Source: Lotus japonicus (lineage: Eukaryota > Streptophyta > Magnoliopsida > Fabales > Fabaceae). Taken from it: a stretch of DNA of 64,000 nucleotides. Where the stretch lies: positions 19,978,150 to 20,042,149 of the forward strand of contig NC_080042.1 of assembly GCF_012489685.1 (NCBI RefSeq). Reading direction: 5' to 3'. Each line of letters begins with the position of its first letter. Position 1 is the stretch's first letter. The notes below the pieces were generated by a model. That model made no database searches. It saw only the letters and a list, made by a program, of their open reading frames with translations, and was not told the DNA's origin. The position numbers and the translations under genes were made by a program. Below, one piece after another: positions 1 through 63,821 of the stretch.

Positions 1-1053
1 CTAAGTTTCTGTTCAGTCCCTGTAATTGAAAAGAATTTTCCAAAAATTACTCGGGAAAATGAAATCTCAAGTGGAGACAATAGTGCAAGGAAAGCCATAT
101 AACCTCATAATTTCCTGCGCAAATATTGTTGCAACCTCACTAGCAGTGTATGGATGACTCATCTCAAAGGAAGAAAATGAGCCTAATGATGGTGTCCTTC
201 CCCTTTGACGTTGGTAAAGCCCCTCACAAAATCCATAGATATCCAAATAGAAGTAGGAACTTGTAAAGGTTGCAGCAGGCCAGCAGGGGACGGAGTGGCA
301 TACTTGTTCCTTTGGCACACATCACAACCAACCACAAACTCCTTAATAAGTATTTTCATGTCCTCCCAATAAACTACATTGGCTACATTGGCAATCCTCT
401 AAAATGCTTGAAAATAACCTGAATGTCCTCCCATGAGTGGAAAATGAAAATTCTTTCAAGATAATGAGAATTCTTGTAGAAGCCTTGGGTAATATCACAA
501 TGTAGTTTTAGAATAATTTATGATCCCTTAAAACATTTATGAGAAGTTGGATTCACTAACAAATCCTGAATAATGCTCTTCAATTTTTCATCTTGTTGGA
601 CCGATCTTGCCACTCTTCGAAATTCTGCATTTTTAAAATGGAAATGGAAGAATAACAGCTCGTTCTTGACGTGGTATCAAATGCTGAATTATCCTTCCCA
701 GGTTTGTACTATACTTCAAAATCATAGCTGGACAGTGTAGTAATCCCCAATCTGTAATCTGTATGGAATTTCAAACTTTTTTCGTCAGTCGTCCTAGCAA
801 TGAAATGAGTGAAAATGCTTTCATTTTTTGATTGCTTTTACCACTGCCATCAATTATCTCTCATAAGCTGGCTTCCTTTGTTTCCTTTTTGATAAGGTGG
901 AACTCTGAAAAGCTAGAGGTCTCCTTTCTTGCAACAAGATAACACCTAAACCAGTCCCTAAAAAATTTGGAATTGCCATTTTAGGAAGCAGGCAAAGTAT
1001 TGAAACATCATCAAGTTTTTCGTAGAAGTCCTTCTGTTTCATTTTCTAAAATT
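1..1053 (-). mobile_element. Decayed Ty3/gypsy pol fragment (RNase H then integrase)
   Basis: The minus strand from about 1040 to 840 reads like a gypsy RNase H region, with a GxGxGVxLxQExRPLAF pattern followed by LSKRKQRKPAYER. The stretch from about 320 to 67 reads like the zinc-binding and catalytic-core parts of a gypsy integrase (WPAATFTSSYFYLDIYGFCEGL, then SHPYTASEVATIFAQEIMRL). The order RNase H then integrase is that of Ty3/gypsy pol. Frameshifts and stops break it throughout, and no LTR was found next to it. The RNase H part is duplicated in block B near 35.7-35.9 kb, so this insertion is older than the duplication. Confidence 0.75.
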
Positions 1054-1253
1054 TGATGAATGAAGTACATAGCGTTTATTGGTGTTTTATATTCCCACTG
1101 TCCCACATAGAATAAACTCATTCCATTAAAGATTGTGACAAATGCCTTCTTTGGCACTGCAAAGATTCCTATGGATTATAACCGACATAATGCAAGTTCA
1201 ATACACAAAGTGCGCCTATTTTGAGGAGAAAACCAGTACGACCTCTTTTATAA

Positions 1254-2021
1254 GGGGAAAACTTAGATGCAGCTCATGTACTGTTATTACTGTTCTCCAA
1301 CCAAAATATAACACTTTGACATTTTTTCCATGTCATCATCCTTAATCATCTTTCCCCTTTCCCCTTCACCTATGCGCCCCTTTTCCCCTTAACTTCTGCG
1401 CACAGGAATTTTAATTTGATGGAGAAAAACCCATGTTTATGGAGCTGGTGATACAATTTCACCAGTTGTAGTGACAATTGCCATTATTTGAGGATCCACC
1501 CTCTATATCCCGCTGCAGCAAAGCTAATCTTAGTTTTCATGGAGCTAGATTTTTCATGTGCACTCCCAAAGTAAATACCTAATTTTGTGGATGTGCCTTC
1601 TCCTCACTGTTCTAATCTCCAGTGTCCCGTTATTGGTCATGTATGGGTGTGGGAGTTGAGTAATTTTGAGAACCATGAACTGAGGTTGGGTGTAGAGATT
1701 TGTACAAACGAGTCATGGTGGTGCGGTTTAAAGAGACGGAACAACCGAAGGTGGGTGGTGGTGGTTGTCTCATCATGGGGTGATGGATGGTTGCGAGAAT
1801 CACATAGAAGTATGAGAGGACTGGAGAGCAGAGCCATGATCAGTTATGGTAACCAAATGGAGAACAGAGTCATGGTGGTCTGGGGTGAGAGAGACCGGAA
1901 CAGCAGAGCGTGAGAACGAGGGAAAAAGAGTTGGTGTGACATGGAAAAAATGTCCAAGTGTTATATTTTGGTTGGAGAACAGTAATAACAGTACATAAGG
2001 TACTGCACCTAAGTTTTGCCC
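1254..2021. mobile_element. Mutator-like non-autonomous element (768 bp, long TIRs)
   Basis: The ends are inverted repeats of about 85 bp, opening GGGGAAAACTTAG and closing with the complement of GGGCAAAACTTAG. They are flanked by the 9-bp direct repeat cttttataa (1245-1253 and 2022-2030), the usual Mutator TSD length. Block B has one uninterrupted cttttataa at 36460-36468, which is the empty site. The roughly 600-bp interior between the TIRs has no recognisable protein and no transposase. The two overlapping ORFs inside (1587-1913 plus, 1637-1837 minus) look like chance. A captured host fragment is possible but was not identified. Confidence 0.85.
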
Positions 2022-2227
2022 CTTTTATAAAACCTTAACATAAGGAGTCTAACCTATGAAAAATCTAATAATTAAGTTCCAAGTAGAAATAAATAGCGAA
2101 AAGTAATGGAAAAATAAATTTCATAGTAACAAAAAATATCACAAAATCATTTTGATTGCAAACAAAAAATGTTGACAACAGTTAACTCCTAGTGCAAAGT
2201 TGTCTAGATCCTCATACAAAGTCCGCC

Positions 2228-5196
2228 TCAACCTTCATTCAGGTTCAAGCCTTCCAAATCACCATTTGATGGAATCTGCAAGAAACCAAATATATATTAA
2301 ATATTTAAGAGACATAACTATATAGTAAAAGACTACACATAAGATATCACAATTTATTTCTTAAAGAAAGCGGTAGTCTATTATATATTTAACAAGTAAT
2401 TTCCTCTTATGTATAACCAAAACATTCCCGTCAAAAAAATAAAATAAAATAACCAAAACATTAGACAATGCACCAGCATGGTAATTCAATGTTAAATTAA
2501 ATCTTTATGAAAAGTAAAGTAATATGATACAAAATAAATTTATACCCGGAATTGAAAACTTTCTATTGTAGCTCTTAATAGAGGGTCTCCAACTATCAAC
2601 CTTAGCTCCTTTACAAAATCACCACGGGAAATCAGTTGTGCCTAATTTAGAATAGTTTATATATTAGATGCATTATATCAATAAAGATCTATATATGGGA
2701 AAGAATGGGAGCTATTGTACATACCTTGTAGAATTCATAATGTGCATTTATAAGACTTATATCACTAGGAGTAACCTTGTCAGTGATAGCAGCTATAAGC
2801 ATTGAAAAAGGCAGCCAAGAAGATTTCGGAATTTTTTGGATGCTAACAATCCCATTTGATGCTATTCCCTAATATATTCCATAACAAAAGAAGTTCTTCA
2901 TATAGGCACTAAAGATAATAAAAATGATTTAAAAACATAAGACAATTATAAAAAGCTCAAAGTCCCTACAAGTTGTGCATGAACACATGAATATGTTTAT
3001 CAAAAAACCTCACATGAAGCACTAAAGGAAACAAGATGAGTTAGTAAAACAATGGTGACTTGAAGATGTACCCAATCACATAAAAAGATTATTACATGAT
3101 CATATCCCTTAAAATTGGCATCATATTTGTTTGTTCAACCTAGAAATTCTTCCACAAGATAGACATATTAAGATAACCCCCTTTGACTTTTTAAGATAGA
3201 AAAACCACGTCATCTTTCTCACCAAGATAAACTAAAGCTAAGGAAATGATATTTAAAGTACAAGGTGAAAAGGTGAAAGCATTCTTACATAAAAACAACA
3301 ATTAAAAAATTGGTATCAATATTATCTTTTATAAAGAAAAAACTTAGATAAACATAAGATGCAAAACTCATATATATGAAGTAACTTACATTATCCACTA
3401 TAGAGGGTGATTGTAACAAGCCACCAGAACCATGACTAGATGAATTGACCCCAAAAGAATTAGCCCTATAAACATTATTCTCTCCCACATTTCCACAAAA
3501 ATGGCCTGTAAGAAAACATCATATATATATTGGTGATAGAGAAGAAAACTTTTCTTGAAAGGAATAGTACTAAATATTTTAGCAATAAAAATGGTTGTTT
3601 GGTTGTTTCATTAAACCAGAGTGTTATCAATATGTTGAATATAAGAGAGCCCATATACAAGGAGATAACAATTTATCGATGGAGCCTTGTTTCCTAAGAC
3701 CAGTTTTTAGAACTATTTTATCCAAAATGGAAACAATGAATCATAAATACCAGCTATTTTGTCTTTGATCAACCCATTGATAATTAATAATATAAATGCA
3801 CAAACTATTTCTTCTAGGAAATCATATGTTAATAACATGTCATTGCAAACGCACATAGAAAGGGAACAATGTATAATACCTTCAAGATCACCGGAGACCT
3901 TAAAACTAACAACAAATTCAGGGTAGATGTGGGTGTTTATATTCACATTCCATACTGTGTAGTTTCTTGGACATTGAATGTCATCCACCCCATTATCATA
4001 TTTAAAGTTGTTGGGTTGAAACTGACCATTGTTGGTGCTCGTGCTAGTGCAAGGTTGAAGAAGCTCCATCTTCCCCATTATTACACGACAAAGGACCAAG
4101 TGTCGAACACCATTTTCATCAGTATCATAATAGCGAGCACTATAAATATGGAACAAAAATTAGTATTAGTTTACAAAAGATCATGTTATTTTAAAAAATT
4201 GATCATATAAAAACTAACCTGGCATAAGGGCAAGTAACAGCTGCAAGATGAACACCAATTCCGTATGAGCATTTGGTTGCACGTAGTGGACAATGCCCAA
4301 GCCCATACTCCATCATTTTAGATAATTCTCCTTTATTAAAAGGAAGCCAAGCATATCGAACATTAGCATCCCCATGTAATTCTTTTATAATCTTAGCTTG
4401 CATCCGGAATAGCTCAAATCGCGCAGGCATTGATGAACCTGAGCAGCGGTATGTCTCAACTATCTCAAAATCAGTACTGCCAAAACTACTCATTCCATTA
4501 CGAAACAACTCTTGTACATAATGTAGATCTATTTTTTCATGTACACATTCAGCACAAGAAGCAAAAAGTAACTCTTGATTTTTCTCAAAAGCTTCACCAA
4601 CATAGTCACAATCCATTTTATTTTTCCTATTTCCAACTTTCACTCGAGTATACTTAACTAAAGCATTGGGCTCCCCAAACTCACTCAAGTTGGATTCAGT
4701 AACCCCCTTCACTTTGATTTGAATGTATAATTTCATACCCTCATATTTGCATAAATTATAGGATTCTTCATCCGAAGTAGCATATACTTCAGGGAAAAAG
4801 CATTTGCCTTCCTCATCAATCCAAGCAATGGGTTGTTGGAGACTAGTTCTCAAGTCCACCTGACACGTGTAAAAAATCTAGCATAAGATCTTGGTCATTT
4901 AACTTTATTTCCACAATTGCCTTTTTCATTTCAAAATCTTTGTTAACCAAGTCAACAACATATTCTGGGTATTCCAACCATTCACCATTATTGTAGCACA
5001 TCATACTCTCAAGTCTTCCACTTCTCTTATAGTTTAAATAATACCTAAGATAGGATTTTCGACTCAAGTTTTTGACATCGCTACTTGGTGTTATTGCAAA
5101 AGGTGGTTGTTGAAATATCGTTGGTCGCAAAGCTCCCTTAAGATGTGCAGCACATTGGGTAGCTGGACTTTTCTTCAGTGCAGTTTTAGCTTCCAT
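2228..5196 (-). pseudogene. SRO1-like: RCD1/SRO1-like gene, block A copy (frameshifted)
   Basis: This resembles plant RCD1/SRO proteins, which are nuclear regulators with an inactive PARP-like fold that bind transcription factors through the RST domain. Six coding exons fit GT-AG splicing: 5196-4219, 4139-3880, 3505-3390, 2868-2725, 2641-2546 and 2275-2228 (stop). An N-terminal region is followed by a WWE domain (about residues 50-145), a PARP-like domain (about 245-430, with SGSSMPARFELF, GDANVRYAWL, YGIGVHLAAVTCPYA, DENGVRHLVLCRVIMGKM and THIYPEFVVSFK) and an RST domain ([33 protein letters not shown]). The phases of all joins agree and the length would be about 547 residues, close to the family norm. 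Compared with block B, two bases are missing at 4866/4867, inside the WWE region, and this breaks the frame. A sequencing error or a live gene cannot be excluded without reads. Confidence 0.85.
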
Positions 5197-7140
5197 TTAT
5201 GTGTACTAGATTGATATCTATAAACACATACAATTATAAAATGTCAGGCGCAACAATCAAATAGAACCGTAGACCTAGAGAAGGTTAAAGAACATTGTGG
5301 CAGTGATGGTGAATTCAAAGAGATCGAGAATATTTTATAGTCCCTAGATACTTAAACTTTTTAGAACATTGGACTAATATATATGATCATGTATAAAGTT
5401 GACACTATAGGTAAGACCGTAAGAGGATTTAATTAATAAAATAATTTCTTGTATCACAAACCGAGTAATCTGAAGCATTTACACTGACAAAATATTTCAA
5501 AAGCACATCTCAAAAACAATTTGATAAAACAAAATTTACAACTTGTAAAATAAACAAACTGATGAGTATTCAATATCATGCCATTAGTATGTTAGCTTTA
5601 AATTTTAAAGACTTAAATAAGAAGAATTTCAATCAAAATTAAAAGATAATGTCATTTAATTTCATTTTTAGTAAATTTCGTGCATCAAACATTTTTAACT
5701 ATTTAATACTATTTGGTCTTCATGAGGCCAAATATAACAAAACCCCAAGAAAATACAAGTTGGAGGATATGAAAAATTGATAACACCAAAGACATATATA
5801 CAGTATATTTCTTAACTGATTGTTTGTTTGTGCAGAATAATAAGGGAGGAAAAGAGAGGGAGAGAAACCGATCGAAAAATTAGTTTCTTCCATTTGTTTG
5901 AGTAGCGTAACCCACCAATTTTTTTCGTCCCTAACATGAAAAGAAAATTGCTTGAGAAAGCAAATTTTTTTAAAACAAATATGCCCTTAATTATTTCAGT
6001 CTACGTGAACACTTATTTTGACTGGTATTAAAATGATGAAAGTTATTATATATCTATCGATTTCCCCATTTCTTCACCCTTTTCCATCCAAGCTAGATCC
6101 AACCAAGAAAACAGAAGTAAAGCTCTCAAATTTCTTTCTTTCCTTTTCTATCTAACTAGATCATATAAAAAAATTTCTTCCTTTCTTTTCTTTCTTATAA
6201 TTTCGCAATTAATGTTTCAAAAACAAAAAAATAATAATAATAATAATACAGGTCTATATATAGTTAGTTCTTTTGAGCCTTATTATTACTAGATTAGATT
6301 TCATGAGAAGAACAAATCCAAACAAGAAAAAAAAACCCAAATATATAGTTGTTTAATTGCAATTTTAGAAAAGACTTAATTGCAGTTTTGCTCCCTCATC
6401 ACACTCACAAATTTACGGTTATTTTCATGAAAAATAAAGAATAATTTACCCTTTCTATCATCATTGAAAATAAAGGCCAAGGAAAACTGAATTTTTTTCT
6501 CAAGTAGTTCAGTTAATGCTTGTATCTAAAGATTGAAGCACCAACGACACAATTCAAGCATAAGAAAAAATATTAAAAAATTTGATAAACTAGAGAAAGG
6601 GCACTAAATTGTCAAAAAATACACAAGAAGAAACCAGCAGTATTGTTGGTGTTCACTCTATACAAGTCGTGCCCAAAAACAGGTACACTCATTATAATGG
6701 AATTTTTTTTTTGAAAAAAATAAGTTTTGTATAGTTTAATAAACCAGGTTTTTTTTGAACGTTAATAAACAAGGTTGTATCAATAACCGAACTGATCCAA
6801 ACTACACTATGATAATCAACCCCGACCAAATGATGAAAAAAAAGAAAAAATGGGTTCAAATTCAGAGAACAACATAAAATGACCTCTATATATTGAAATC
6901 AATCTCTAACTAGACAAATAAAACAAACATTAAAGTTTTGCAAAACATAAGAAGTCACTCAAATTTCGAATGAGAAATGCATGGAATGAAAAAAAACTAA
7001 AGAGAGAAGGCTTAAAACTCTACCTGCCTCAAAGCACAGAATACAACCCACAGAATGAACCTAATAAAACCTTTACCGCTGATTATCTCTCTTTTACTAA
7101 ATGCTTTAAAATGTGTGTCGAATAAGAGGGTAGAGAGCCC
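5197..7140 (-). other. SRO copy A 5' UTR and long leader intron
   Basis: A non-coding first exon probably ends at 7024, where the minus strand reads GAGGCAG followed by the donor GTAGAG. The same exon and donor exist in block B (near 41.74 kb). The intron would run to an acceptor just upstream of the ATG at 5196, with candidate AG sites near 5207 and 5222. RCD1-type genes commonly have a leader intron. About 1.24 kb of this intron (roughly 5694-6936) is missing from block B. No other gene is visible in the stretch. It holds AT-rich sequence and a short ATA microsatellite near 6229-6248. Confidence 0.55.
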
Positions 7141-7148
7141 TATTTATA
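7141..7148 (-). promoter_or_regulatory. TATA box of SRO copy A
   Basis: The minus strand reads TATAAATAGGG about 115 bases upstream of the predicted leader-exon donor. The same box sits in the same position in block B (41855-41866). A run of about fourteen G lies just upstream (7157-7170). Confidence 0.6.
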
Positions 7149-7400
7149 CAAAAAATGGGGGGGGGGGGGGGATATGGTAGAATTTGGTGGATATGGAAGC
7201 AACGAGACTACAAAGTAAGATGGTTGATGGCGGGTTTTTTTCCCCTCTATGGCTCTGCTAGTCTTCCCCTTTATCACTTTTCCAAGAAAACCTAACCCTA
7301 TGCGAAATCATCACATGGAGTTTGATGTAGTTACCATGAACTTCAATAACATACATCACACCTTTTTTTTGTGAGGGAAATAACATACATCACACCTTAA

Positions 7401-8826
7401 CACTCTGTTTGTTTTAATGGAAAAGTGCAGAAAGGAATAAGGCTGGAAAGGAAAAGGAAAGGAAAAAGGAATCTTTGTCTATTTGGAACAGGCTGGAAAA
7501 GGAAAGGGAGATGAAATTGGATGGTGAATAGTACCAAATTATTTTCCGCGCATCTTTGCCGTGAAAACGAAAAAGGGAACGTCATTTTGTTAAAAAGACA
7601 ATAAAAGCCTTTAAATTTTATGCAACACATCACTTGCCACTGAAGAATTAGAGCTATGACTCTCTCCTATTGTATTATCCATATGCAGCTTTTACTACTT
7701 ATTCAATATTGTCGGTGTTATTCAATTATTTAATCCTAATAAATAAGTCATCATAAATAATTAACGTTATCAAATGTCCTATTAAACCATATGTTATATC
7801 TATAATGCAAACCGTTTAAAAAAAAACGCAACCAATGTTTTATTTAATCATAATTTAAATTTGTATATAAACAACAATAGTTTAATAATTTAATTTTTTT
7901 TATCAAAGAAACAATTATTAAATTTTAAAAAGTTAAAATTTTTTGATAATCAGTTAAAAAAGTTATATATATATATATATAAACTACAAACAAGAGGATA
8001 AAGTTGTCATTGCATAACATACTCATTCTCATTTTTCTTACTTTTCCATCTATTATCCTTTCCTTTTCACACAATCCAAACAACTTCAAAATCCTTTCAT
8101 TTTAACTTCCTTCTACCTTCTTTCCTTTCATTTTCATTCCTCCTATTTTCACTTTACATCCAAACAGAGCGAGCTTGAACAATTTCATTTTTTTTTCTTA
8201 AAATGGAACAATTAGTTAAATTTTTTTTATAAACAAATTAGTTACAAAGTTAAATTCTATATTAAGTACTTTTATGATCTACTATATATTATTATGTCGA
8301 TGATTTATATTCTAAAATAGTATTATATTTAAAAGGAATCTTTGTCTGTTTGGAAAAGGCTGGAAAAGGAAAGGGAGATGAAATTGGATGGTGAATAGAA
8401 CCGAATTATTTTATGCGCATCTTTGTCGTGAAAACGAAAAAGGGAACATCATTTTGTTAAAAAGAAAATAAAAGCCTTTAAATTTTTTGCAACACGTCAC
8501 TGACCACAGAATAATTGGAGCTATGACTCTCTCTCATAGTATTATCCATATGCTGCTTTTACTACTTATTCAATATTGTCGGTGTTATTCAATTATTTAA
8601 TCCTAATAAATAATTCATCATAAACAATTAACGTTATCAAATGTCCTATTAAACCATATGTTATATCTATAATGCAAACGGTTTTAAAAAAAAAAATAGC
8701 GCAACCAATGTTTTATTTAATCATAATTTAAATTTGTATATAAACAATAATAGTTTAATAATTTAATTTTTTTATCAAAGAAATAATTATTAAATTTTAA
8801 AAGGTTACATTTTTTTATAATCAGTT

Positions 8827-8872
<46 letters not shown>

Positions 8873-9036
8873 CAAACAAGAGGATAAAGTTGTCATTGCA
8901 TAACATACTCATTTTCATTTTTCTTACTTTTCCATCTATTATCCTTCCTTTTCACACAATCCAAACAACTTCAAAATCCTTTCATTTTCCTTTCATTTTC
9001 ATTCCTCTTATTTTCACTTCATATCCAAACAGAGCA
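7401..9036. mobile_element. MITE-like element, internally tandem-duplicated
   Basis: The ends are short inverted repeats (CTCTGTTTG at 7402-7410; CAAACAGAG at 8161-8169 and again at 9027-9035), with a purine-rich left side and a pyrimidine-rich right side. TAA lies outside both outer ends (7398-7400 and 9037-9039), which would fit a Tourist/PIF-Harbinger type, but the TSD call is weak. The body plus its right flank has been duplicated in tandem with a period of about 867 bp (about 7468-8334 and 8335-9207). Each copy has its own AT dinucleotide run (7967-7980, 8833-8868). Block B near 43.09 kb lacks the whole element. No transposase is present. Confidence 0.55.
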
Positions 9037-9621
9037 TAAGAGCTTGAACAATTTCATAATTTTTTTTCTTAAAATGGAACAAGTAGTTAAAAAAAAAAAA
9101 TTTAAACAAATTAGTTACAAAGTTAAATTCTATATTAAGTTTTTTTATGATCTAATATATATTATTATGTTGATGATTTATATTCTCGATTAGTATTATC
9201 TTTAAAATGGATATCTATATAATATACTAAATGAATGTTTTTTTCTAGAAGGTTTTGCCACGTGTCACCCCCATATCATCCTAATAAAAAACATACAAAT
9301 TTTATTTTTCAATATTAATATGCATTAAAAAACAAATTTTGTTTTTTTAACTTTGAAATACATATTTAAAAAAAAAAACAAATCCGTGCAACAAAGAAAA
9401 GAATATATACAAAAGTGCAATATTTGTGAATATTTTCTATTTTTAATCAACATGCACAACAGGTACCTTATCATGGATGGGTAGTCAAGACTATAAAAAG
9501 GGAAGCAAAAACCCTTCAAACCTATTTGGGAATAGTTCACCCAAAACAAGAATCACCCTATAAATCTTGTAGTCCAAATTTCTCCATGATCGTTTTTTCT
9601 AATGAGGGTCAAAAACCTTTG

Positions 9622-9705
9622 TTTAACGTCACATTATCAGAGTCACAAGCATCTGGCACCTTCGTTTAACGTCACATTATCAGAGTCACAAGCATCTGAC
9701 AGTCA
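9622..9705. repeat. Two tandem copies of a 42-bp unit
   Basis: A unit beginning gtttaacgtcacattatc and ending near caagcatctg occurs twice in a row at 9622 and 9664, nearly identical. It lies inside the Helitron. Confidence 0.8.
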
Positions 9706-10592
9706 ATTGGTACTGATTATTTATCGTCATTTATTTTAATGATACAAATTCGTTATACTTATTAGTTATTCACTATTTTTATGCCTCCTACACATACAAT
9801 TCCAAAACAAATTGCCCAAAATTATTTTTCTAATACAACTATTTTAGTTCAACTAAGAGATCAAGTCAGTACTTAACATACATGCAAAGTCTTGAAGGGT
9901 TGTAAGGGAAAGGAGAGCCTGGAGTTTGGATCAGGGTGGAAAGAGTTTTGCACATCGAATGACGTCCGTGAAGGGGATATATGTTGTTTCAAGTTTCAAC
10001 ATATAAAATCAAATATTGTTGATGTATCTATAGTCTATCAAGTGGTTTAGGATTTCGAGCAGTGTTTACATTTGGTTTGTTTTGTTTTAGGTTGGTTTTA
10101 ATCCACTACTCTATTGAACTATTCAATATGAATTTTAATTTTTAAGAAAATTGTATATTATGCTACATTAATTTAGTTCTTATAAATTTCTTTCTTTCTT
10201 TTTTCATACTTACCTCATTTGAATGCTAAAGCTTTCTAATTAGCTAGAACATGACATACCTTAAAAAAAGGGTAGAACATGACATGAAAAGGTCAATAAG
10301 TAAAAAAAACGGAACAACCTAATTGTAAGTTAAAATTTTCAAATTTACTTCAAAATGTTATCATGATCGAACATAACAACAATAATTTTTTTTGGTAAAC
10401 ACATAACAACAATAATGATATAGAAAAAGGAATCAAACAATATTTGTTCAAATTTATTTGATCACGTTCCAAAATTCAAGTTTGGTGGACCATGTGGTGG
10501 TTAAATTTTGAAGTTTGCAAAATTTAATGATATTTATTAAAAAAATAAAATTTATATCTTTCTAATTTCAAAAAAATAAAATTTATTGTTTC

Positions 10593-10878
10593 TTTTTTTT
10601 GATAACAAAAAGAAATTTATTAGATAGAGGCCAAACCAACAAAGGCCTAAATGTCCCCATGCCAAAACACACCTAGAGATTGAGCCTCATTAAAACCTTC
10701 AAAAGAAAAATCCAAAGAGAAAAAACCAATGAAAAAAAAAGAGTACTACAATCACTAGATAGGCAAGGGAACAAACCAATATTCAAGAGGAACAACTCAT
10801 CTCTTTACAACAAAACCTGCACTCATGCACTAACCTTCCTAAATCAAACCGTATATAATAAACAAGCACCCGTAGGCC
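10593..10878 (-). mobile_element. 5'-truncated LINE 3' tail (286 bp)
   Basis: A T-run at the left is the poly(A) of a minus-strand insertion. It is flanked by the perfect 16-bp repeat taaaatttattgtttc (10577-10592 and 10879-10894). The reverse complement carries the block GTACTC then T-rich sequence then GGTTTTAATGAGGCTC, common to plant L1 3' ends and shared with LINE-C (27.83-27.90 kb). It inserted into the Helitron, so it is younger than it. Confidence 0.85.
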
Positions 10879-12648
10879 TAAAATTTATTGTTTCTTTTTT
10901 ATGATTAGTTTTATAAAAATAATATTATTTAATCAAATTTGAACTGCCAATTTGATACGTTCAAAAATCATCTACTTGAGATCTTGGATGTAGAAAACAT
11001 AAAAATTTTTGTATGCACCTATTTTTATTAAACCTATCTACAACTATTAAAAAAGAATTTTTAGAATATTTGCTTAATCTTTAACAAAATCAATCTCGGT
11101 TGGAATCGATAAAAAAGTCAAATTTAAAAAAAAAACTAATTTCATTTAATTACATGGCGTAATATAGTTTAGATTGAGAATTAAAATTAAATGAAATTCG
11201 TTTACTTGCTCTTATAATTTATCTTTTAGTTTTTATATCCAAGTGTGGTCTTTGATTTAGACGGGATATTAGAAGTGTCGAATGCCACATATTTCTAAGT
11301 CTTGATTTAGACTGAGTTGAGTCCAAAGCAGTTTAGGTAGTACTTCTTAGTTCTTACTTTTTAAATATTTAAATTTTAGGTATCCAACAATAGATAACAT
11401 GAGCAAATCACACAAGTGGATTGGACACCACATTTTTGGATGTATGAGAGATCTTTCACTTATAAAGTGCTAAACACTCCTCTAATCATCCAATGTGAAA
11501 CTTTCTCAAACATAATATTTTCCAAATATTACAAAGTAATTAAAAATATAATTTTTTTGATAAATTACAAAATAGTTAGAGTAAAAAGTTACATAAAATA
11601 TTCATGTTTAAAAAAATATATATCTGTATTTCATTTTTTATTTAATTCTGTATTTAAAATATTAATTTCTAACTTTTTGATTATTTATGATGTATTTTTG
11701 TTTCTTCTTTGATATGTTTTCAAATAGAATCCCAAGTTAAGGTACATAAAAATTTGAAATAAAGTGGGCCATGCTCCTATTTAATTAAATTAGATAATAG
11801 TAACTGTTAGAATATTTGTTGAGTTAAAAAAAACTTTTAGAATATTTGTTTAATCTTTAACAAAATCCATCTCGGGTGGAATCAATAAAAAAACAAAATT
11901 TTCTTTAAAAATAGGAAACGAATTTCATTTAATTACATGGCGTTTAAATTTGGTTATTTCCTATTTAAATCAATTTGTCAATCTATTTTGTTTTGAACTA
12001 CCAATTTGATTGTTCTTTTTTTAACAGTATTCCATTTAGTCAATAATCTTTAATTAATGCAATGATTTTACAAATTAACTTAAGTACCTTCCTACCTACT
12101 TCATAATTATGAACAAAGGTTCTAGAACGATTTGTGAGGGACCTGGAAGCTACCCTCAACGCTGAGTTGCAGAACATGAAGCCATTTCTGATTTTTGAGT
12201 TTTTTTTTGGTTCAAAAAATTTATGAGCTTTAACTGAACCCTAACTGAAGGGAAAACCTGCCAGTATTCTTTTTTTATTGGGCTGACCCAGAGAAAAATG
12301 GGAAAGGAGCCCAATCTTATTTGGTATTGAGGTTAAACTTCAAATATACTGCACTGTTTTGCCACTCTCCGGCCCTTCATTCTTCATTCACCCGGTGTTA
12401 GAATTCAAGTGTGGGTAAAAATCTTTTAAAAAGTCACACATTGACCGAAAATGTGAATGTTGAATAATTTATAAGTGAAATGTGAGTGTCGAATAATATA
12501 TAAGTGAAATGACTAAGTGAAGCTGCCGATGGCAGCCAAGACGGCTTCAACGCCGCGGCCCATGGTAGGAAGAGAGAAAGAGGTTCTTACGGGATGAGAG
12601 AGGAATGATTGAGTGTAAGAATAGAATGGAAGGTGGGTGAGTGATTTT

Positions 12649-12824
12649 TCGTGGAATGTGTGTGGTGGGAAAGAAGATTTGACTAGTCAACATAATTATA
12701 ATAAGATTTAAAGTTTAAAAGTTGACTAAAATTAATTCGTGGAATGTGTGTGGCGGGAAAGAAGATTTGACAAGTCAACATAATTATAATAAGATTTAAA
12801 ATTTAAAAGTTGACTAAAATTAAT
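12649..12824. repeat. Two tandem copies of an 88-bp unit
   Basis: The unit starts tcgtggaatgtgtgtgg and ends near gactaaaattaatt. Copies at 12649 and 12737 differ at only a few positions. They lie near the 3' end of the Helitron. Confidence 0.85.
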
Positions 12825-13123: not shown

Positions 13124-13133
13124 ATTCTGCTAG

Positions 13134-17275: not shown

Positions 17276-17280
17276 CAATT

Positions 17281-17569: not shown

Positions 17570-17571
17570 AG

Positions 17572-54021: not shown

Positions 54022-54358
54022 ATACCTTCGGGTACAGTTTATGCCTTCGGGTACAGTTTATGCCTTCGGGTACAGTTTATGCCTTCGGGTACAGTTTATG
54101 GCTTCGGGTACAGTTTATGCCTTGGGGTACAGTTTATGCCTTCGGGTACAGTTTATGCCTTCGGGTACAGTTTATACCTTCGGGTACAGTTTATCCCTTC
54201 GGGTACAGTTTATGCCTTCGGGTACAGTTTATACCTTCGGGTACAGTTTATGCCTTCGGGTACAGTTTATACCTTCGGGTACAGTTTATGCCTTCGGGTA
54301 CAGTTTATGCCTTCGGGTACTGTTTATACCTTCGGGTACAGTTTATACCTTCGGGTAA
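54022..54358. repeat. 19-bp tandem array, 5' LTR (about 17-18 units)
   Basis: The unit is tatgccttcgggtacagtt, with variants such as tatacc, tatggc, tatccc and cttggg. The 19-bp length is not a multiple of three, so the array stays open in all three plus frames. It is shared in position, but not in unit order, with the 3' LTR array. Confidence 0.95.
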
Positions 54359-55390
54359 TTCGGACATCGACGGGGGATATGATCGACCGTGAGGTTAGGA
54401 TCGACCTGTTGATTGTCGGGCATAGCGGAGGGAAAAGTCGACCCGCAGGGTTAGGACTGATCCGGCTATGTCAAGGTTGTAAGTGACACTCGGGGTTTAT
54501 GGTCGACACAATGCCAGTGTTAGGACCGACTCAAACGTGCCCAGCCTACTCTTTCTGGAACCGTCGAGAGTGACGTTGCATTGACATATCATGCACTCTA
54601 ATTGTATCGTTATATGTTTTGATGAGTTGATGTTGATAAACATCGTTATGTGTTTTGATGAGTAGATGTTGATAGATATCGTTATGTGCTTTGATGATGG
54701 AATTGTACTAGAGTGTTGATAACATGCTATGTTTAAACCTTAGGGTAGACAATGCAGAACTTATATGTATATAGACAACATATATATATATACCCCTTAT
54801 ACTTTATCTGGTGTCTTGTATTTTCTATCCTATATTCCGTAAGTTGACCCTTGCACGTGCTACCTGTGTTTGGGGGGCTATGTATGCCCTTTTTGTCAGA
54901 TGCCGTCGATGGATTCTTTCGTGATTCTTCGTCATTCGGGGAAGACCCGGAGCGAAATGACTACCGCTGAGCCTTCGACGTGGACCCGGACTTCATGCAT
55001 GACCAGATGAGAGTCGATGATGGAAGTATAGGGGATGGGTGTTTAGAGTCTACTAAGGTTGGGTGTTAGTGTCATAGCTCTGACTTATTCTTATTTTTGG
55101 AGGGCTTGTGTTGCTGACACTTGACCTATCATTTTGGGGATTGTACATTTTGCCTACGGGCGTTACACTTTTCTACTTTCCGTCACTGGAGGTTACTCGT
55201 GACGAGGTCGCTACTTACAGCGGGGAATGTTATATGTATTGTGTATTAGTTCTGTTACCTTTCGCATTTGGGTTTTATTCAATTCAGTCTTGTCTTAGTT
55301 ATTATTATAAAAAAAAAATATTTACGTTTTTCCGCATTAAGTTTATTTTGGTTACTAAAGTGACGCCACCGAAATCGGGGTGTTACATTG

Positions 55391-55402
55391 TGGTATCAGA
55401 GC
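55391..55402 (+). promoter_or_regulatory. gypsy primer binding site
   Basis: TGGTATCAGAGC follows the 5' LTR after three bases (ttg) and pairs with the 3' end of initiator tRNA-Met. Confidence 0.85.
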
Positions 55403-55601
55403 ACGGTCGAGTCTTTCGGGAGTTGTTGGGGAATAGGTCTTCTGTGCTAGGTTGTGTGACTCTGCAAAGAGTAAAAAAATTGATTGTCTGCAAGCGATTT
55501 TTCGCTTAGAATTGATTGAAGTTATTGCTTAATCATATTGTATAGTCATGCTAGATGCTATCTTATGATGAGTACTAACTGTTTGCTTAACTTAACAGAA
55601 C

Positions 55602-56795
55602 ATGGTGAACTCTAACCAACTTGCTGAGATGGTGGCCACTTTGGTCCAAGCAATGACTGTACAGACGAATGACAATGCACATAGGCGTGCTACTGAGGAT
55701 ACACGTGAGCTACACCGGCTTCAGAGAGAAGCAGCCCTGGACCAGAACAGGGGATTGAATGATTTCAGAAGACAGAATCCACCCAAGTTCACGGGTGGGA
55801 CCGACCCGGACAAGGCGGATCTCTGGATCCAAGAGATTGAGAAGATTTTTGAAGTACTACAGACTAGTGAAGGGGCCAAGGTGGGCCTGGCAACTTATCT
55901 GCTGCTGGGCGACGCTGAGTACTGGTGGAAGGGTACCAGAGGAATTATGAGGGCTAACCACGAAGAGGTGAATTGGAACTCCTTTCGTACTGCGTTTCTA
56001 GAGAAGTACTTTCCAACTAGCGCTCGAGACGAGCGGGAGGCACAATTTCTGACCCTGGGTCAAGGGAGCATGACCGTACCTGAGTATGCTTCCAAGCTGG
56101 AATCATTGGCTAAGCACTTCCAGTTTTTCAACAACCATGTTGATGAACGCTACATGTGTAAGCGGTTTCTGAATGGGCTGAGAGCAGACATCGAAGATTC
56201 AGTGAGGCCTTTGGGGATTATACGATTTCAAGCTTTGGTGGAGAAGGCCACAGAGGTGGAGCTGATGAAAAATAGAAGGATGAATGGAGCTGGAACTGGG
56301 GGACCGATGAGGTCGAGTTCCCAAGACAATCTTGGAAAAGGAAGGTTTCAGATGAAGAAGCCTTATCAGCGCCCTATGGGGGAAGGTTATACCCTAGGGC
56401 AGTACAAACCGATGACCCTTGCTACTGGAGGTGCAAGGCATCAAGTCGGCAACACGGATGTGACATGTTTCAGGTGTGGGAAGACTGGACATTTTGCTGA
56501 CAAGTGCCCAGTGACTGGACCAAGATGCTTTAATTGCAACCGAGTGGGACATCGAGCTGTGGATTGTAAGGCGCCCAAGAAGGAGCCATCTGTTCACACT
56601 GCAAGGGGAAAGCGCCTCACTACTAGAGGAAGAGTTTATATCATGGACGGAGGAGGATCGAAGAAGTTAGCCAGAGGAGAGCGCAAGAACGACGGTAACC
56701 TTCTAACCATTCTTTCTCATTTCAGTATAATATATTCCATTACTCTCGTAGCGTGTGCAAACACACCTAACTTACTTATACTGTCTAAGCTTTGA
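55602..56795 (+). CDS. gypsy Gag protein (397 aa)
   Basis: The N-terminal part carries a Retrotrans_gag domain (about residues 65-215: FRRQNPPKFTGGTDPDKAD, WWKGTRG, WNSFRTAFLEKYFP, LGQGSMTVPEYASKLESLA, RFLNGLRADI). Two CCHC knuckles follow (CFRCGKTGHFADKC, CFNCNRVGHRAVDC). The last 60 residues do not resemble gag-pol; the frame runs into unrelated sequence where the protease should begin. The element therefore encodes a capsid-like Gag but no enzymes. Confidence 0.93.
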   Translation: MVNSNQLAEMVATLVQAMTVQTNDNAHRRATEDTRELHRLQREAALDQNRGLNDFRRQNPPKFTGGTDPDKADLWIQEIEKIFEVLQTSEGAKVGLATYLLLGDAEYWWKGTRGIMRANHEEVNWNSFRTAFLEKYFPTSARDEREAQFLTLGQGSMTVPEYASKLESLAKHFQFFNNHVDERYMCKRFLNGLRADIEDSVRPLGIIRFQALVEKATEVELMKNRRMNGAGTGGPMRSSSQDNLGKGRFQMKKPYQRPMGEGYTLGQYKPMTLATGGARHQVGNTDVTCFRCGKTGHFADKCPVTGPRCFNCNRVGHRAVDCKAPKKEPSVHTARGKRLTTRGRVYIMDGGGSKKLARGERKNDGNLLTILSHFSIIYSITLVACANTPNLLILSKL

Positions 56796-57919
56796 CCTTA
56801 TAGTTATTACGCCTATTAATACCTTATTTGACCGTAGCTCGTATTTTAGCTATAGAAGTTATACGAGGTTTAGAATGACACGCTAAGCTTAGAAAGTAGT
56901 CTTCTACCGATACGTTTAAAAGGAAGCTAGAAGCTGAAGAATGAATCTCATAGAGATTTCTTATGGATAGTATACGTATGATGTCGAGGGCGTGTAGTTC
57001 CGTAGCGGAATCGTTGAGGATTTGAGGTCAGGATATTTGTGACTATTGGATGATAGGAACTCATTGACTGTTCCAGTGGGTTTTTCTAAATTTCACCTTC
57101 GATGTATTAGGCTTGATCAACTTAATATTGAGGGGGTGATATTCGGAATCAGAGCTGGCTATGGACTTTGATAGAAGGATTGGTAAGATTAACTTGATTG
57201 GATCGAGAATTAGTCGAGCTGGGGGGAAAAAGTTCGCATTAAGTATAAGTTCTCTTGCGAAGGAGATATAGTTTGAAGAAATGGATATTCATTTAGGAAG
57301 CATTGAAGAATTAACGGACATTAGAGGTCCAAACTTGGTGAAGGTTCAGGTTTTAAGTCTATGAATTGTTGTCTCAAGTTTCTAGGACTCGAAGTTGGTT
57401 CGAATTTGATAGAGAGATTAAGAAGTTGATTGACGAGATGGTGATCAGGTTACAGAAAAGGGAAGTGTTAGTATTAAGATGAACACTTGAGGTTGTCATA
57501 TTTGGACAAGTTGCTTAAAGTCTAAGAGTGAATGAAACTTGTTATGGATTTCGGTGATACAAGCTAGAGATTAGCGAGTGAATTTTGCTAAGTGGAATGA
57601 GAATCTTAGGGTAAAGATTGACTTCAGAAGCTGGAGATCATATTCGAGTAAGAGTTTTAGTGGTGTCATCATTGACGATTGTAGTTAAACCTCGGCAAGT
57701 TGAAAGATGTTATGTCTGTTGAGACGCCGTCGAACCAGCATTGGGGCTAGAAGAGTGAAACAATCGAAGAGAAAGCAGAGTGTTTTAGTGAAAATTATTT
57801 GGAATAAAGACACGGACGGTGTTATGTGGGAGTTAGAGGAAAAGATCAAGGAATAATATCCAGAACTATTACTGACCCTTAAGTTTCGAGGACGAAACTT
57901 TCTTTTTGGAGGGTAGTAA
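56796..57919 (+). other. Residual internal region without recognisable pol
   Basis: No protease, RT or integrase motif was found. A few phrases with gypsy-pol flavour remain around 57.28-57.55 kb, but they are in broken frames. The end contains a purine-rich tract (ggagggtagtaa) before the 3' LTR. Confidence 0.6.
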
Positions 57920-60900
57920 TGTAAGACCCAAGATTTTAAGCTTAGGATCAGTGGAAGAGATTTCCATTTACGATTAGGGTTGATGTATTGTGAAGGGAAA
58001 CCTGAACTAGAGTTTACCAAATGAAATAAATTTATGAAGGAGAAAGTTCAGGAAAAGTCAAAGGATTACATCATGATCGATAAAAGTTATAGTACGATCG
58101 TTATACGCTTAACCTAGGTCAGAAACCCTAGTATATAGCTAATTTTCACTTTTAGGCACGATGGAAGTTAATTCCAAAAATCTTCAGAGAAATGTTAGAA
58201 CTTCTCTTTTTCCATATATCAAAATCGTTTCGAGGCGAAACTCTAGGATCTACGAACGTCCGATTCCAATCATCGGAAGTTTGCCGAAACCGAATACCTG
58301 GTATTTCAAAACCCTAGAATTTCTCGACGATGAAGACTTTTTCTATTCAGAGCTTCAAATGATTATTCTACACGCGTACACCCATTTCTCTTGATGATTT
58401 CAATCTTTCTTCCGAAGGAAGTTTTCCATTCCGACATTCGATGCAAAAAGCAACTTATCGGGTAAAATAGTTTTATACCGACTATGCTTTAGTTGCCAAA
58501 AATACAAAGAGACCTCATTTTAGTTTTGGAATTCTTTCGCCAAAACATATCTACTAATTCACGGAGTATGACGCCGGAAAAATTAGATTCGCAAAACTTT
58601 CATTTTCCCGCGAATTTCCAACTTTTATATATAGCAAAGAAAGGAAGAAAAACTCAAATTTTCCTCCATTTTCTTCATCAAGGCCGCGAGTTCTACAAGG
58701 GAGGGAGAAGAGAAGATTTTCTTCATCGTTTGCTTGATCGTCGATCAATCAATTGCTACTTCAAGGCTTCGAGGTATAGTCGCTAATCCTTACCTCTGAT
58801 CGCTTTTTCCATAGCTTTTCTGTAGAGTTTTCTGAGCGGATAGTTTATGGGTTTTTGCAAAACTATCCTGAATCTTTCATTTCTGATTCTAAACCTCTTC
58901 TATATGTGCCCAAGATCACTTCTGCCGGGTTAAATTTTCCGTTATGTCGCCGGAATTCCGCCGGAATCAATTTTAGCCTTAAATACCCATTTTTGGAGTT
59001 TTTGAGGTAAAGCTTCAACCTTTAGGCTAAAACATATCGCCTTAGCTTAGTGTTAGTAGGATTAGTTGTCATAAACGTCGTTAGTAACGTCCCTGCAAAA
59101 TTTGGTTTTTGGGATTTCAGTTTTGAAATTTCTAAGTTAAAAATCATGACCAAAATACCCCTGCGACAGTTTTTGATCCGATAATTTTTCCGAGTTCAGA
59201 ATACCCTTAGTTACGGCTAATGAAAGCATAGGAACCAAGTTTGATCGAAGAAAAATTGAGCCCCACAATTGTGAAAAGTGGCCGAGCCCTATAGAGGAGG
59301 AGGGGGAAAATTCCTTTTCCGAAAACTTGTCCTTTCGCGCTAGATTATCGTACCTCGGAGTATGAACTACTTCGTGTAACCTTAGTGAGCATTGATAGCT
59401 TAGTTTCCGATAGATTTTGATAGAATTATGTGGTTTTACTTTAAAGGTTCTTTTGAAGAATTTCCTGAAGATCAAGGAGCTCATTGTGAAGGAACGTTTG
59501 AGGAGAACGCTGGAATAACTAGAGGTAAGGGCAACTTACCTTGCTAGTTAATGCTTTAGGTGTCGATGAATTCGACTAGATTTATTGTTTATGCACTTGT
59601 TTGTGTTTGACTGGTAAAATGTTTTCTGAGGCTTCGGCTGACAATGTAGATGATTCATCTACTGAATGTTTTTGAGAGTGAATTACATGCTATTGTGCTA
59701 TGTGGGTAATCTAGGATGTGTGGTGCATGCTTTATACGCTAAGTGTTAAGTGTTTATGATGAGATTTATGGATATATGACATGTTGTTGATTGTGATGAT
59801 TTAAATATGCTTTGCGCTAGAAACTGAGATTCTGAATGGTGAGGATAGCGGGCAGGTCATGCCGATTTTATTTTGAGAGTTTTGGAGGAAGTTTGATAGG
59901 ACGAATGAGATTAGGGCCTTGTTATGATGTGTATGGATCGAGACATTCTCTGGAGTCATTTGGGGATTTGGAGATCCCGAGAACTTATAGGATTTGCGAT
60001 AAGACTAAAAGGATATTATTTTGAAAAGAAAACTCATAAGACATTAAACAACCTCTAAATCTTTAAGTAATGGCGTTAACCTCGAAAGGAAGCTTTGGAT
60101 GCAAATCTTAGTTGTGGAAAATGAGAAGTGTCGTCGGATCCAAGTGTTGAGAAAGTTGAGAAGTTTTGAGTATGTTGATACTCTTGTGCTGTGGGAGCAG
60201 TTATGTCGTTGGGCTATCCGAGGGATAAGCCGGGAGACTGATAGTTTTCGAGTATGTCGATACTCTTTGCTCGCTGAGCAGTTTTTGACCATCGGATGGA
60301 GATGAGTCGGATGATTCGAGGAATCATCATGAGTTAAGTGTATACCTTCGGGTACAGTTTATGCCTTCGGGTACAGTTTATGCCTTCGGGTACAGTTTAT
60401 GCCTTCGGGTACAGTTTATGCCTTCGGGTACAGTTTATACCTTCGGGTACAGTTTATGCCTTCGGGTACAGTTTATGCCTTCAGGTACAGTTTATGCCTT
60501 CGGGTACAGTTTATGCCTTCGGGTACAGTTTATACCTTCGGGTACAGTTTATGCCTTCGGGTACAGTTTATGCCTTCGGGTACAGTTTATGCCTTCGGGT
60601 ACAGTTTATACCTTCGGGTACAGTTTATGCCTTCGGGTACAGTTTATGCCTTCGGGTACAGTTTATACCTTCGGGTAATTCGGACATCGACGGGGGATAT
60701 GATCGACCGTGAGGTTAGGATCGACCTGTTGATTGTCGGGCATAGCGGAGGGAAAAGTCGACCCGCAGGGTTAGGACTGATCCGGCTATGTCAAGGTTGT
60801 AAGTGACACTCGGGGGTTATGGTCGACACAATGCCAGTGTTAGGACCGACTCAAACGTGCCCAACCTACTCTTTCTGGAACCGTCGAGAGTGACGTTTCA

Positions 60901-61707
60901 TTGACATATCATGCACTCTAATTGTATCGTTATATGTTTTGATGAGTTGATGTTGATAAACATCGTTATGTGTTTTGATGAGTAGATGTTGATAGATATC
61001 GTTATGTGCTTTGATGATGGAATTGTACTAGAGTGTTGATAACATGCTATGTTTAAACCTTAGGGTAGACAATGCAGAACTTATATGTATATAGACAACA
61101 TATATATATATACCCCTTATACTTTATCTGGTGTCTTGTATTCTCTATCCTATATTCCGTAAGTTGACCCTTGCACGTGCTACCTGTGTTTGGGGGGCTA
61201 TGTATGCCCTTTTTGTCAGATGCCGTCGATGGATTCTTTCGTGATTCTTCGTCATTCGGGGAAGACCCGGAGCGAAATGACTACCGCTGAGCCTTCGACG
61301 TGGACCCGGACTTCATGCATGACCAGATGAGAGTCGATGATGGAAGTATAGGGGATGAGTGTTTAGAGTCTACTAAGGTTGGGTGTTAGTGTCATAGCTC
61401 TGACTTATTCTTATTTTTGGAGGGCTTGTGTTGCTGACACTTGACCTATCATTTTGGGGATTGTACATTTTGCCTACGGGCGTTACACTTTTCTACTTTC
61501 CGTCACTGGAGGTTACTCGTGACGAGGTCGCTACTTACAGCGGGGAATGTTATATGTATTGTGTATTAGTTCTGTTACCTTTCGCATTTGGGTTTTATTC
61601 AATTCAGTCTTGTCTTAGTTATTATTATAAAAAAAAAATATTTACGTTTTTCCGCATTAAGTTTATTTTGGTTACTAAAGTGACGCCACCGAAATCGGGG
61701 TGTTACA
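57920..61707 (+). repeat. gypsy 3' LTR (3788 bp)
   Basis: The complete LTR runs from TGTAAGACCC to GTGTTACA. A TATATATA box is at 58626-58633. It contains a 19-bp array at 60340-60678. Short spurious ORFs occur in it. Confidence 0.93.
60340..60678. repeat. 19-bp tandem array, 3' LTR (about 18 units)
   Basis: The same unit as in the 5' LTR, with a different distribution of variant units, for example one ttcagg variant near 60481. The two arrays have evolved separately since insertion or underwent unequal exchange. Confidence 0.95.
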
Positions 61708-61712
61708 GTTTC

Positions 61713-62958
61713 CTTGATTGCGCCACGTGTCTTCTAACTCGTCAGGTTTGTTCACCCTCTCACCGGCGTTTCTGGTCACCGTTCCTCCGCCGTGCCCAGT
61801 GTTGGACAAATCATCAGTATTTGAAACATCTTCTGGATCCATATTTCGCTGAGAAATGTCTTCCTCATCTCCGTTCTCCCAAGTGTTCGTTTCCTTTGAG
61901 TCCAATGATGAATTATCAACAGGATTTTCAGCATGAGCCTCCTCCCTTTTACAATCATGAGCGAGTGAAGTTTCCCGTTCGATAATAATCGAGCTGACCC
62001 CGGATTCGAACTGTATTGTTACTTCTCGAGGGTTGAATACCGGTACCGTCGTCTCCACCAATATTCTTGCATAATCCAAGTGTTCTTTTCTTTCTGTAGG
62101 ACCATCCATACATACGTACCTTCCAAAAGTAGTTGCCACCATATCAAAAAAATCACCATTCCAGGCACACATCGGTACCTTCCATAGTCTCACCCACACC
62201 AAGTGTGATGTAGCACACCATAACTCTGGTGTCAAAGAGATTCCTTCAAAGCGATCCTCAAAAAAACCCCTCGCTTCCTTTAAAAAATCTTTATCCTCTT
62301 CGGATTGAAATTCTAATAACACTTCCTTCGCCCCCATGGGTTTGATGTTAAAGCTTGTTAAACCATTTCTAATAAAAATCTCCTGCAAGCTTTCTATGGA
62401 CTGTAAACCATGCATCGATGCCCCCGCGCACCGTTTGAGCCATTCTTTATCTATATTGGACGTCGTGTATGAAAGGCTCCCATCTCCTTGAAGTTTTTCT
62501 GTCAAGGCACCTGTAGCTTTCACCTTTGGTTTCCAAATTTTTTGTTGATGCGATTTATCGATCTTCCTAGTCTCTGAGGGTCTCCATATACGTTGTGCTT
62601 CGCCTTGACGAGGTACTCTTTGATACTTGGCTTTCTTTACCTCCAGGAACGCCCCATCCAACCGTAATCCATTGAACTTTCGGATTGCAATCCAAGCTTC
62701 CTCATCAGTGTTGTAACGTACAAAACCAACTCTGAAACGCCTTCCCACCCTTCTCTGCCTTTGGACGAAAATTTCACGCAGATGTCCAGCTTTAGAAAAT
62801 ATGTTTTCCACTTTCCTCCTTGAAATCCTATCACCCAAGCCATCAATGAAAACGGAGAAGGATAATGTTTGTCTCCGATCATTGGTTTGCATTTGTCTTC
62901 CATTCCGTGGCCAGTGATCCTGCCGGACATCGCCTGCCCTAGCAGAGCGTGAAAACAT
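61713..62958 (-). pseudogene. LINE-B ORF1, N-terminal part (RRM), split by gypsy insertion
   Basis: The ATG at 62958 opens an ORF with an RRM at about residues 30-110 (SFSVFIDGLGDRISRRKV, RVGFVRYNTDEEAWIAIR, FLEVKKAKY). A central region follows (NIKPMGAKEVLLEFQSE, VWVRLWKVPMCAWNGDFFDM, TTFGRYVCMDGP) that matches LINE-C. An acidic linker follows up to the gypsy TSD gtttc (61708-61712). The frame is uninterrupted to that point. ORF1 probably binds element RNA as the RNP coat. Confidence 0.88.
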
Positions 62959-63027
62959 TATTCAATCCATCAAAAATTATTATTAATATATGTATATAAA
63001 AACTGTCAAATTAAAGTTGATATTTAT

Positions 63028-63122
63028 ATATTTTAAAATCATATTAAAATTTATGTTAATTTATATTCGAGTTCATATTTAATTTGTTAACGTAATTAAT
63101 ATTCTATCTTATAAATATCAAT
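63028..63122. repeat. AT-rich host tail between LINE-B and the dUTPase retrocopy
   Basis: It contains the LINE-A empty site (attaatattctatct, near 63.09-63.10 kb) followed by caataatcatataa as in block A after 24.09 kb. Confidence 0.65.
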
Positions 63123-63132
63123 AATCATATAA

Positions 63133-63591
63133 TTTTTTTTTACATAAAAAGGGAGCATAATGCCAATGATGAGGATGAGAACACAAGACTTAAGATTAAA
63201 CCCAAGTTTATTGCATAGAAAAAAGAGAGACAAAATCACCAAAACCCATTCTTCTTGTACATGCCAGTAATCTAATCCTAAAATGCAATAAATCATGTAG
63301 CATAATCATAGTTAGAGAATTAAAAATTAAACCCCAGTTGATCCAAAACCACCTTCACCTCTGACAGTATCATCCAAATCCTCAACTTCAGCAACCTCAA
63401 GCGTCACGATCTTCTCCATAATCATCTGAGCAACCTATCCCCCTTCTTCACTTCAAAATCAACATCTGAGAAATTGAACAATATCACCCCAACCGGACCC
63501 CTGTAAACGACGTCGATCACTCCGGCACCAACATCAATCGAATGCTTCCAAGCCAACCCGATCGCGGTGCGATATGAGCATAGGTTTTTCC
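63133..63591 (-). pseudogene. dUTPase-like: Processed dUTPase retrocopy, 5'-truncated
   Basis: The minus strand encodes the C-terminal half of a plant dUTP pyrophosphatase: [48 protein letters not shown] and [21 protein letters not shown]. The stop is at 63329-63327. No introns are present, a poly(A) lies at 63142-63133, and the TSD aatcatataa is at 63123-63132 and 63592-63601. Two single-base deletions break the frame (after APRSG and after KKGDR). A functional enzyme hydrolyses dUTP to keep uracil out of DNA; this copy cannot. LINE machinery probably made it. Confidence 0.9.
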
Positions 63592-63601
63592 AATCATATA
63601 A

Positions 63602-63821
63602 ATTTTTTATTAATTAGAATAACTCAAAAAAAAATATTCTGTCAAGTGTATATTTGTATATTAAAAGACCCTTATTCATATTTACATATTAGAAAATTTA
63701 TATTTAAATTCATATTTTTGGAAAGAAATTTAATATTTTTAATTTTACATAATGATATTTTTGTTATGTTTTAACAGGATTTCGTTTGACATTCCCCTTA
63801 TTTATGAGAGGGGTGTTCTCT
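63602..63821. repeat. Block B AT-rich tail with LINE-C empty site
   Basis: The phrase gtgtatatttgtatat occurs once here (near 63.65 kb), in the same context as the two TSD copies that flank LINE-C in block A. No gene is present. Confidence 0.7.

Follow-up and report, generated by a model that had tools for sequence, protein, structure and literature searches.

Do two neighbouring blocks of a plant chromosome, both laden with transposable elements, descend from one ancestral segment, and does each preserve the sites into which the elements of the other were inserted? This question is raised by a 64,000-nucleotide stretch of the Lotus japonicus genome (C2:19978150-20042149, hereafter the window), for which an earlier note, made by inspection, had proposed two copies of a segment, here termed blocks A and B, that share a backbone in the same order. 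Self-BLAST of the window revealed the expected diagonal, a chain of same-strand collinear matches that begins at 829 in A and 35713 in B, fades past 28192 and 63825, and ends at about 28250 and 64040, beyond a fragment of a long interspersed nuclear element (LINE) in B. Comparison of the plus strand of B with A gave 20 matches (best 3028 bits), whereas no match was obtained with B reversed (n = 1) or with first-order Markov resamplings of B (0/20), which ruled out chance likeness of two AT-rich halves. Alignment of the backbone in ten pieces yielded 4631 identical bases out of 5028 and a Kimura two-parameter distance (K2P) of 0.0837 ± 0.0043. A shared backbone of about 5 kb at 8% divergence is set against some 41 kb of private insertions, and inserted DNA makes up about 72% of A and about 75% of B. 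The 20-kb flanks of the blocks showed no continuation of the homology. When six backbone pieces of A were searched against the window and the 120 kb to its left and right, they matched A and B only, apart from an AT-rich repeat. An array of three or more tandem copies was rejected for this range (piece 2019-2130 was left out). The degenerate AT repeat recurs to the right of the window at 71-82% identity. AT-rich pieces were therefore not accepted as evidence of homology on their own, and the match at 28008-28192 (90%) counts chiefly together with its target-site duplication (TSD).

The earlier note had named eight elements whose empty site is displayed by the paralogue: a Mutator-like element (MULE; site at 36460), an element resembling a miniature inverted-repeat transposable element (MITE; 43.09 kb), a Helitron (43.41 kb), LINE-A (63.09 kb), LINE-C (63.65 kb), a terminal-repeat retrotransposon in miniature (TRIM; 2.12 kb), a solo long terminal repeat (LTR; 4.43 kb) and LINE-B (13.65 kb). 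All eight sites (8/8) were found in the paralogue (Table 1), the names of the three LINEs being matched to elements by inference from the coordinates. At six of them (MULE, TRIM, solo LTR, LINE-A, LINE-B and LINE-C), two copies of the TSD are present when the site is filled and one when it is empty, and the TSD lengths are typical of the respective class, with 9 bp for the MULE, 5 bp for the TRIM and the solo LTR and 16-18 bp for the three LINEs. Each of the LINEs has a poly-A end and a TSD within 10-20 bp, as expected of an L1-type LINE. The TRIM combines short LTRs and a 5-bp TSD with many short copies in the genome (best 40 of 2106 candidates scored). Helitrons begin with TC, end with a hairpin followed by CTRR and insert between A and T without a TSD; the ends of the element in A, read by eye, show a 5' TC, a 3' hairpin with CTAG and an A|T target without a TSD. 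The site of the solo LTR is uninterrupted in a third paralogue on C3 (L041) as well. A relative of this LTR lies at 75333-76618.

The collinear backbone, the TSDs and the reciprocal empty sites make it very probable that one RCD1/SRO-like segment was duplicated nearby in direct orientation and that each copy then received private insertions. The ancestral segment, with one RCD1/SRO-like gene and an AT-rich flank, was duplicated at a time corresponding to a distance of about 0.084. As the TSDs and reciprocal empty sites show, A then gained the MULE, the MITE, the Helitron and two LINEs, and B the TRIM, an LTR element now reduced to a solo LTR, a LINE and a retrocopy of a dUTPase gene. Younger copia and gypsy elements later landed in the LINEs, as shown by their nesting and near-identical LTRs, and each gene copy was broken by its own lesion. 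The pre-insertion sites presumably survive because the divergence of the backbone is still low, and no special preserving mechanism need be assumed.

A deletion of 1.26 kb upstream of the gene also occurred in B. A stretch of 1262 bp without a TSD (5695-6956) is present in A only. In the genome-wide searches, which covered 553.7 Mb in 65 contigs, this DNA matched other RCD1-like loci up to about position 6049, and past that point the sole matches were to A and to three short pieces (37-38 bases). L041 aligns unbroken to A 5569-5910 (69%), through the point where B departs. An insertion in A was rejected, since the third paralogue shows the start of the stretch to be ancestral; the presence of its first ~215 bp in L041 indicates a deletion upstream of the gene in B, and the remainder would be ancestral too. 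Thus a comparison of two copies can misread a deletion as an insertion, and a third copy settles the matter.

Since an empty site in the paralogue means that the insertion is younger than the duplication, the relative insertion history that the earlier note had read from the window holds for each insertion with respect to the duplication. It does not extend to the order of insertions at separate sites, among which no order was shown; nesting orders a few pairs. LINE-A preceded the copia-type element, LINE-B the gypsy-type element, LINE-C its MULE-type insert and the Helitron the LINE tail in its end, and the MITE-like element was in place before the tandem duplication in A. LTR divergence is low (copia 0/289; gypsy 34 differences in 3246 aligned bases) compared with the 8% of the backbone. 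At plant rates of 6e-9 to 1.3e-8 substitutions per site per year, the duplication would be ~3-7 million years old and the gypsy-type element about 0.4-0.9 million years, the copia-type element being younger still.

Both copies of the shared gene were compared with each other and with the rest of the genome. The WWE domain of SRO/RCD1 proteins was detected in the gene copies, and relatives of the gene are named RCD1-like in L. japonicus records. SRO/RCD1 proteins also have a PARP-like core and an RST domain; the downstream frame of A (3713-4159) gave no Pfam match, and the L. japonicus relative P0012 carries PF12174, the RST domain. Neither the 2-base deletion of copy A nor the solo LTR of copy B is present in L041, so that the frameshift is private to A and the solo LTR to B. 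Between the gene copies, dS was 0.090 and dN 0.050, a ratio of 0.55, as one pairwise value over 253 codons without a test. The family comprises at least 37 loci including A and B, on all six chromosomes (C1-C6), many of them clustered. In the DNA search, 64 of 67 matches, merged within 3 kb, gave 37 loci (40/40 candidates scored); the remaining three, of 37-38 bases, lay outside the gene and were omitted. The protein search gave 48 matches (43/43 candidates scored), which also merged into 37 loci. Each search holds one locus absent from the other, and the protein-only locus, on C1, is 26% alike.

The broad distribution of the gene would also be compatible with a backbone segment that is itself a transposable element, or with a gene fragment moved by one. 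This is very unlikely, because the other RCD1-like loci are 66-82% alike in the matched pieces and 31 of the 35 contain open frames of at least 270 codons (23 of these 31 without a stop inside the matches), because neither shared ends nor a TSD were noticed flanking the two blocks, and because 12 of the 20 neighbour distances below 100 kb fall between 16.9 and 29.2 kb, as in local gene duplication. Reciprocal presence and absence of insertions would likewise be seen if A and B were two haplotypes of one locus that the assembly had laid end to end, and one gypsy-type family does lie to the left of both blocks. Such an artefact is nevertheless highly improbable: the backbone distance of 0.084 is far above usual within-species diversity, the 20-kb flanks of A and B have nothing in common apart from the gypsy family and AT-rich and MULE-type repeats, and both blocks are joined in one 95.6-Mb contig. 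Insertions older than the duplication could have been lost precisely from one copy, given that MULE-type and MITE elements can excise and that B carries the 1.26-kb deletion. However, the empty sites checked hold one TSD copy, the solo-LTR site is empty in L041 too, and LINE, LTR, TRIM and Helitron insertions are not known to excise precisely, which makes this history barely credible.

Several observations weigh against a nearby duplication followed by private insertions, or limit it. Blocks A and B are separated by a 7.5-kb spacer that consists mostly, not wholly, of recognisable elements, and no sequence related to the roughly 1 kb directly to the left of B (34658-35712) occurs in the 120 kb to either side. 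Not every difference between the blocks is an insertion, as the 1.26-kb deletion in B illustrates, and two stretches present in B only (35891-36069 and 36203-36386) could be either insertions in B or deletions in A. The LINE-type fragment at 63822-63990 lacks a TSD. Among the eight named elements, the MITE-like one is the weakest, with limits that are not sharp and a 3-bp TAA TSD that is no more than probable. Finally, the LTRs of the TRIM differ by a K of 0.102 (11 changes in 117 bp, 9 of 11 being transitions), nominally older than the duplication (K 0.084), within error; its empty site says that it came later. The excess is likely due to the small sample and to faster change of methylated DNA, and it demonstrates that LTR dating can conflict with empty-site evidence.

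The stretch at 34658-35712 bears on how the duplication arose. Gypsy-family stretches lie to the left of both blocks (-2982..-461 and 30019-32078), with three pieces that are 99.8, 98.6 and 90.9% alike. Duplication through unequal exchange between them was considered and rejected, since two of the three pieces are far above backbone identity and the sequence abutting the blocks differs. Beside A, the gypsy-family stretch is followed by a fragment that, read by eye, resembles an integrase. The MULE-type element of the spacer is Pack-MULE-like, and sequences related to its ends occur near -16.0 and -14.5 kb.

Table 1. Positions of the features in the window (first letter = 1; negative numbers lie to its left)
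Feature	Position	Strand	Details
Block A (backbone and insertions)	829..28192	+	collinear matches to block B
Block B (backbone and insertions)	35713..63825	+	collinear matches to block A
MULE-type element private to A	1254..2021	.	TSD CTTTTATAA; empty site B 36460-36468
TRIM private to B	36582..36934	.	117-bp LTRs; TSD GTAAC; empty site A 2126-2130
Solo LTR private to B, in RCD1-like exon	39215..40423	.	TSD TTGAT; empty site A 4430-4434
LINE-A private to A	13687..24075	-	16-bp TSD; empty site B 63095-63110 (1 mismatch); copia inside
LINE-B private to B	44036..63010	-	17-bp TSD; empty site A 13645-13661 (2 mismatches); gypsy inside
LINE-C private to A	24170..28007	+	18-bp TSD; poly-A; empty site B 63644-63661 (exact)
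Helitron private to A	9214..13098	+	TC...hairpin...CTAG, between A and T; empty site B 43414/43415
MITE-like element private to A	~7402..8171	.	probable TAA TSD by eye; empty site B ~43.09 kb
RCD1/SRO-like gene copy A	3713..5196	-	2-base deletion breaks frame; WWE_5 1.7e-16 and 3.5e-8 on two halves
RCD1/SRO-like gene copy B	38592..41192	-	exon split by solo LTR; WWE_5 4.8e-32
DNA in A only	5695..6956	+	first ~215 bp at other RCD1-like loci
B-only stretches near left end of B	35891-36069, 36203-36386		without clear TSD
Minute 5'-truncated LINE-type tail private to A	7365..7378	-	14 bp; 20-bp TSD; exact empty site B 43069-43088
Minute LINE-type tail at Helitron 3' end	13102..13124	-	23 bp; 12-bp TSD
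Tandem duplication in A	7464-8334 / 8331-9207		~870 bp; most of MITE-like element and right flank; K2P 0.065
Tandem duplication in B	41847..42947	+	~600-bp unit; self-comparison
LINE 3' fragment private to B	43228..43359	-	13-bp TSD; empty site A 9182-9194 (similar, non-identical)
Processed dUTPase pseudogene private to B	63133..63591	-	TSD AATCATATAA; exact empty site A 24104-24113
LINE-type fragment private to B	63822..63990	-	no TSD; ~16 target bases lost
Copia-type element in LINE-A	17281..21983	+	289-bp LTRs, 0 differences; TSD CAATT
Gypsy-type element in LINE-B	49022..61707	+	TSD GTTTC; unequal LTRs 49022-55387 and 57920-61707
MULE-type foldback element in LINE-C	25602..26135	.	TSD AACCCAGTA
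MULE-type element in spacer, with mTERF fragment	28346..29719	.	9-bp TSD TATTTAATT; PF02536 8.2e-6
Gypsy-type fragment in spacer	30019..34657	-	30019-32078 has 91-99.8% relative at -2982..-461

The method itself is established. In PMC2213677, RESites (Related to Empty Sites), a method of Le et al., were used in Medicago truncatula, where, as in this window, element-free paralogous loci show the pre-insertion site and prove insertion. The case described here differs in that a single pair of neighbouring segments polarises insertions of many element classes in both directions, in part with the help of a third paralogue. PMC6911290, on nested plant LTR retrotransposons, likewise describes young LTR elements that sit within older retroelements; here the hosts are LINEs. 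According to PMC7290416, the published L. japonicus MG-20 assembly comprises 544 Mb with 357 Mb of repeats. The process is an ordinary one for a plant genome. What makes the locus valuable is how many classes of element can be polarised in both directions within a single window, together with the correction by the third copy. It is a small and verifiable case of the rapid loss of resemblance between two plant segments.

According to PMC9961671 and PMC9657690, SRO is a small family: poplar has nine genes and potato six. The Lotus loci resemble this SRO/RCD1 family in the WWE domain and in the RCD1-like naming of the relatives, and differ from it in their number (at least 37), in the clustering of many of them and in that the two copies studied here are broken. 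For a family described as small, the RCD1-like family is unusually large in Lotus. Among the literature matches listed, none concerned this expansion by its title and the start of its abstract, and a word search of PMC2848248 found no Lotus, Medicago or soybean. A large clustered family in Lotus is of possible interest to researchers on SRO proteins.

Of nine independent LINE-type events recognised in the backbone, eight lie in its AT-rich fifth (1388 bp, 79% AT), a length that was measured on A and includes 28193-28345 and 29729-29758, two parts with little or no homology to B; the count excludes the LINE tail in the Helitron end. Four of these eight fall within ~170 bp, and six carry a TSD, which was found neither at 63822-63990 nor at a poly-T-headed stretch from ~29759. 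In the other 5626 bp of backbone (68% AT), which surround the gene, no LINE-type event was recognised by eye. A mechanical scan for minute tails found one candidate there (~6751-6761, 15-bp direct repeat with 1 mismatch), in the A-only piece; the scan was insensitive, since of the two minute tails already recognised by eye it recovered just one, and the few further repeat pairs that it gave to the left and right, of low complexity or AT only, were not counted. The naive probability was 2e-6 for 8/8 (1e-5 without the A-only piece) and ~2e-5 for at least 8/9, with the left/right split chosen post hoc. It is conceivable, though rather doubtful, that the AT-rich flank is a recurrent landing strip for LINE-type, target-primed insertion, with LINE-C perhaps from an ORF1-only family. 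If true, the copies of a duplicated segment would acquire LINEs independently at almost identical positions. This reading is weakened by the candidate on the left side and by L038, a relative of LINE-C on C5 (94-97% alike): L038 lacks the foldback element found in LINE-C together with ~186 bp of its right flank and so offers no clean empty site. An AT preference of the endonuclease, or selection around the gene, would suffice to explain the clustering.

The coding content of the three LINEs was assessed by domain searches. The RVT_1 domain was found in LINE-A and LINE-B, and no reverse transcriptase was detected in LINE-C by these searches. LINE-C possesses a region resembling ORF1 (open reading frame 1) with an RRM and a DUF4283 match at 24.6 bits, under the cut-off of 27.2. 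In L038, ORF1 passes into the 3' part without a reverse transcriptase across the ~1.5 kb seen. LINE-C may belong to a plant LINE family that, like HAL1, has ORF1 only. A literature search on ORF1-only plant LINEs yielded nothing relevant among the matches listed.

Several features of the window had been absent from the earlier note, namely the dUTPase pseudogene, the LINE fragments and tails, the tandem duplications and the nested copia-, gypsy- and MULE-type elements. In the dUTPase pseudogene, PF00692 was recovered in two pieces (2.9e-11 and 8.5e-7), and the copy was evidently carried by LINE machinery. The class of the copia-type element was assigned by eye from its single long pol frame. 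The LTRs of the gypsy-type element measure 6366 and 3788 bp; their first 343 bp are 100% and their last 2903 bp 98.8% alike. Between these parts, the 5' LTR holds 3.1 kb, largely an inverted ~85% copy of the 3' part of the LTR, compared with 542 bp in the 3' LTR. Perhaps a related element was nested there in antisense and later partly deleted.

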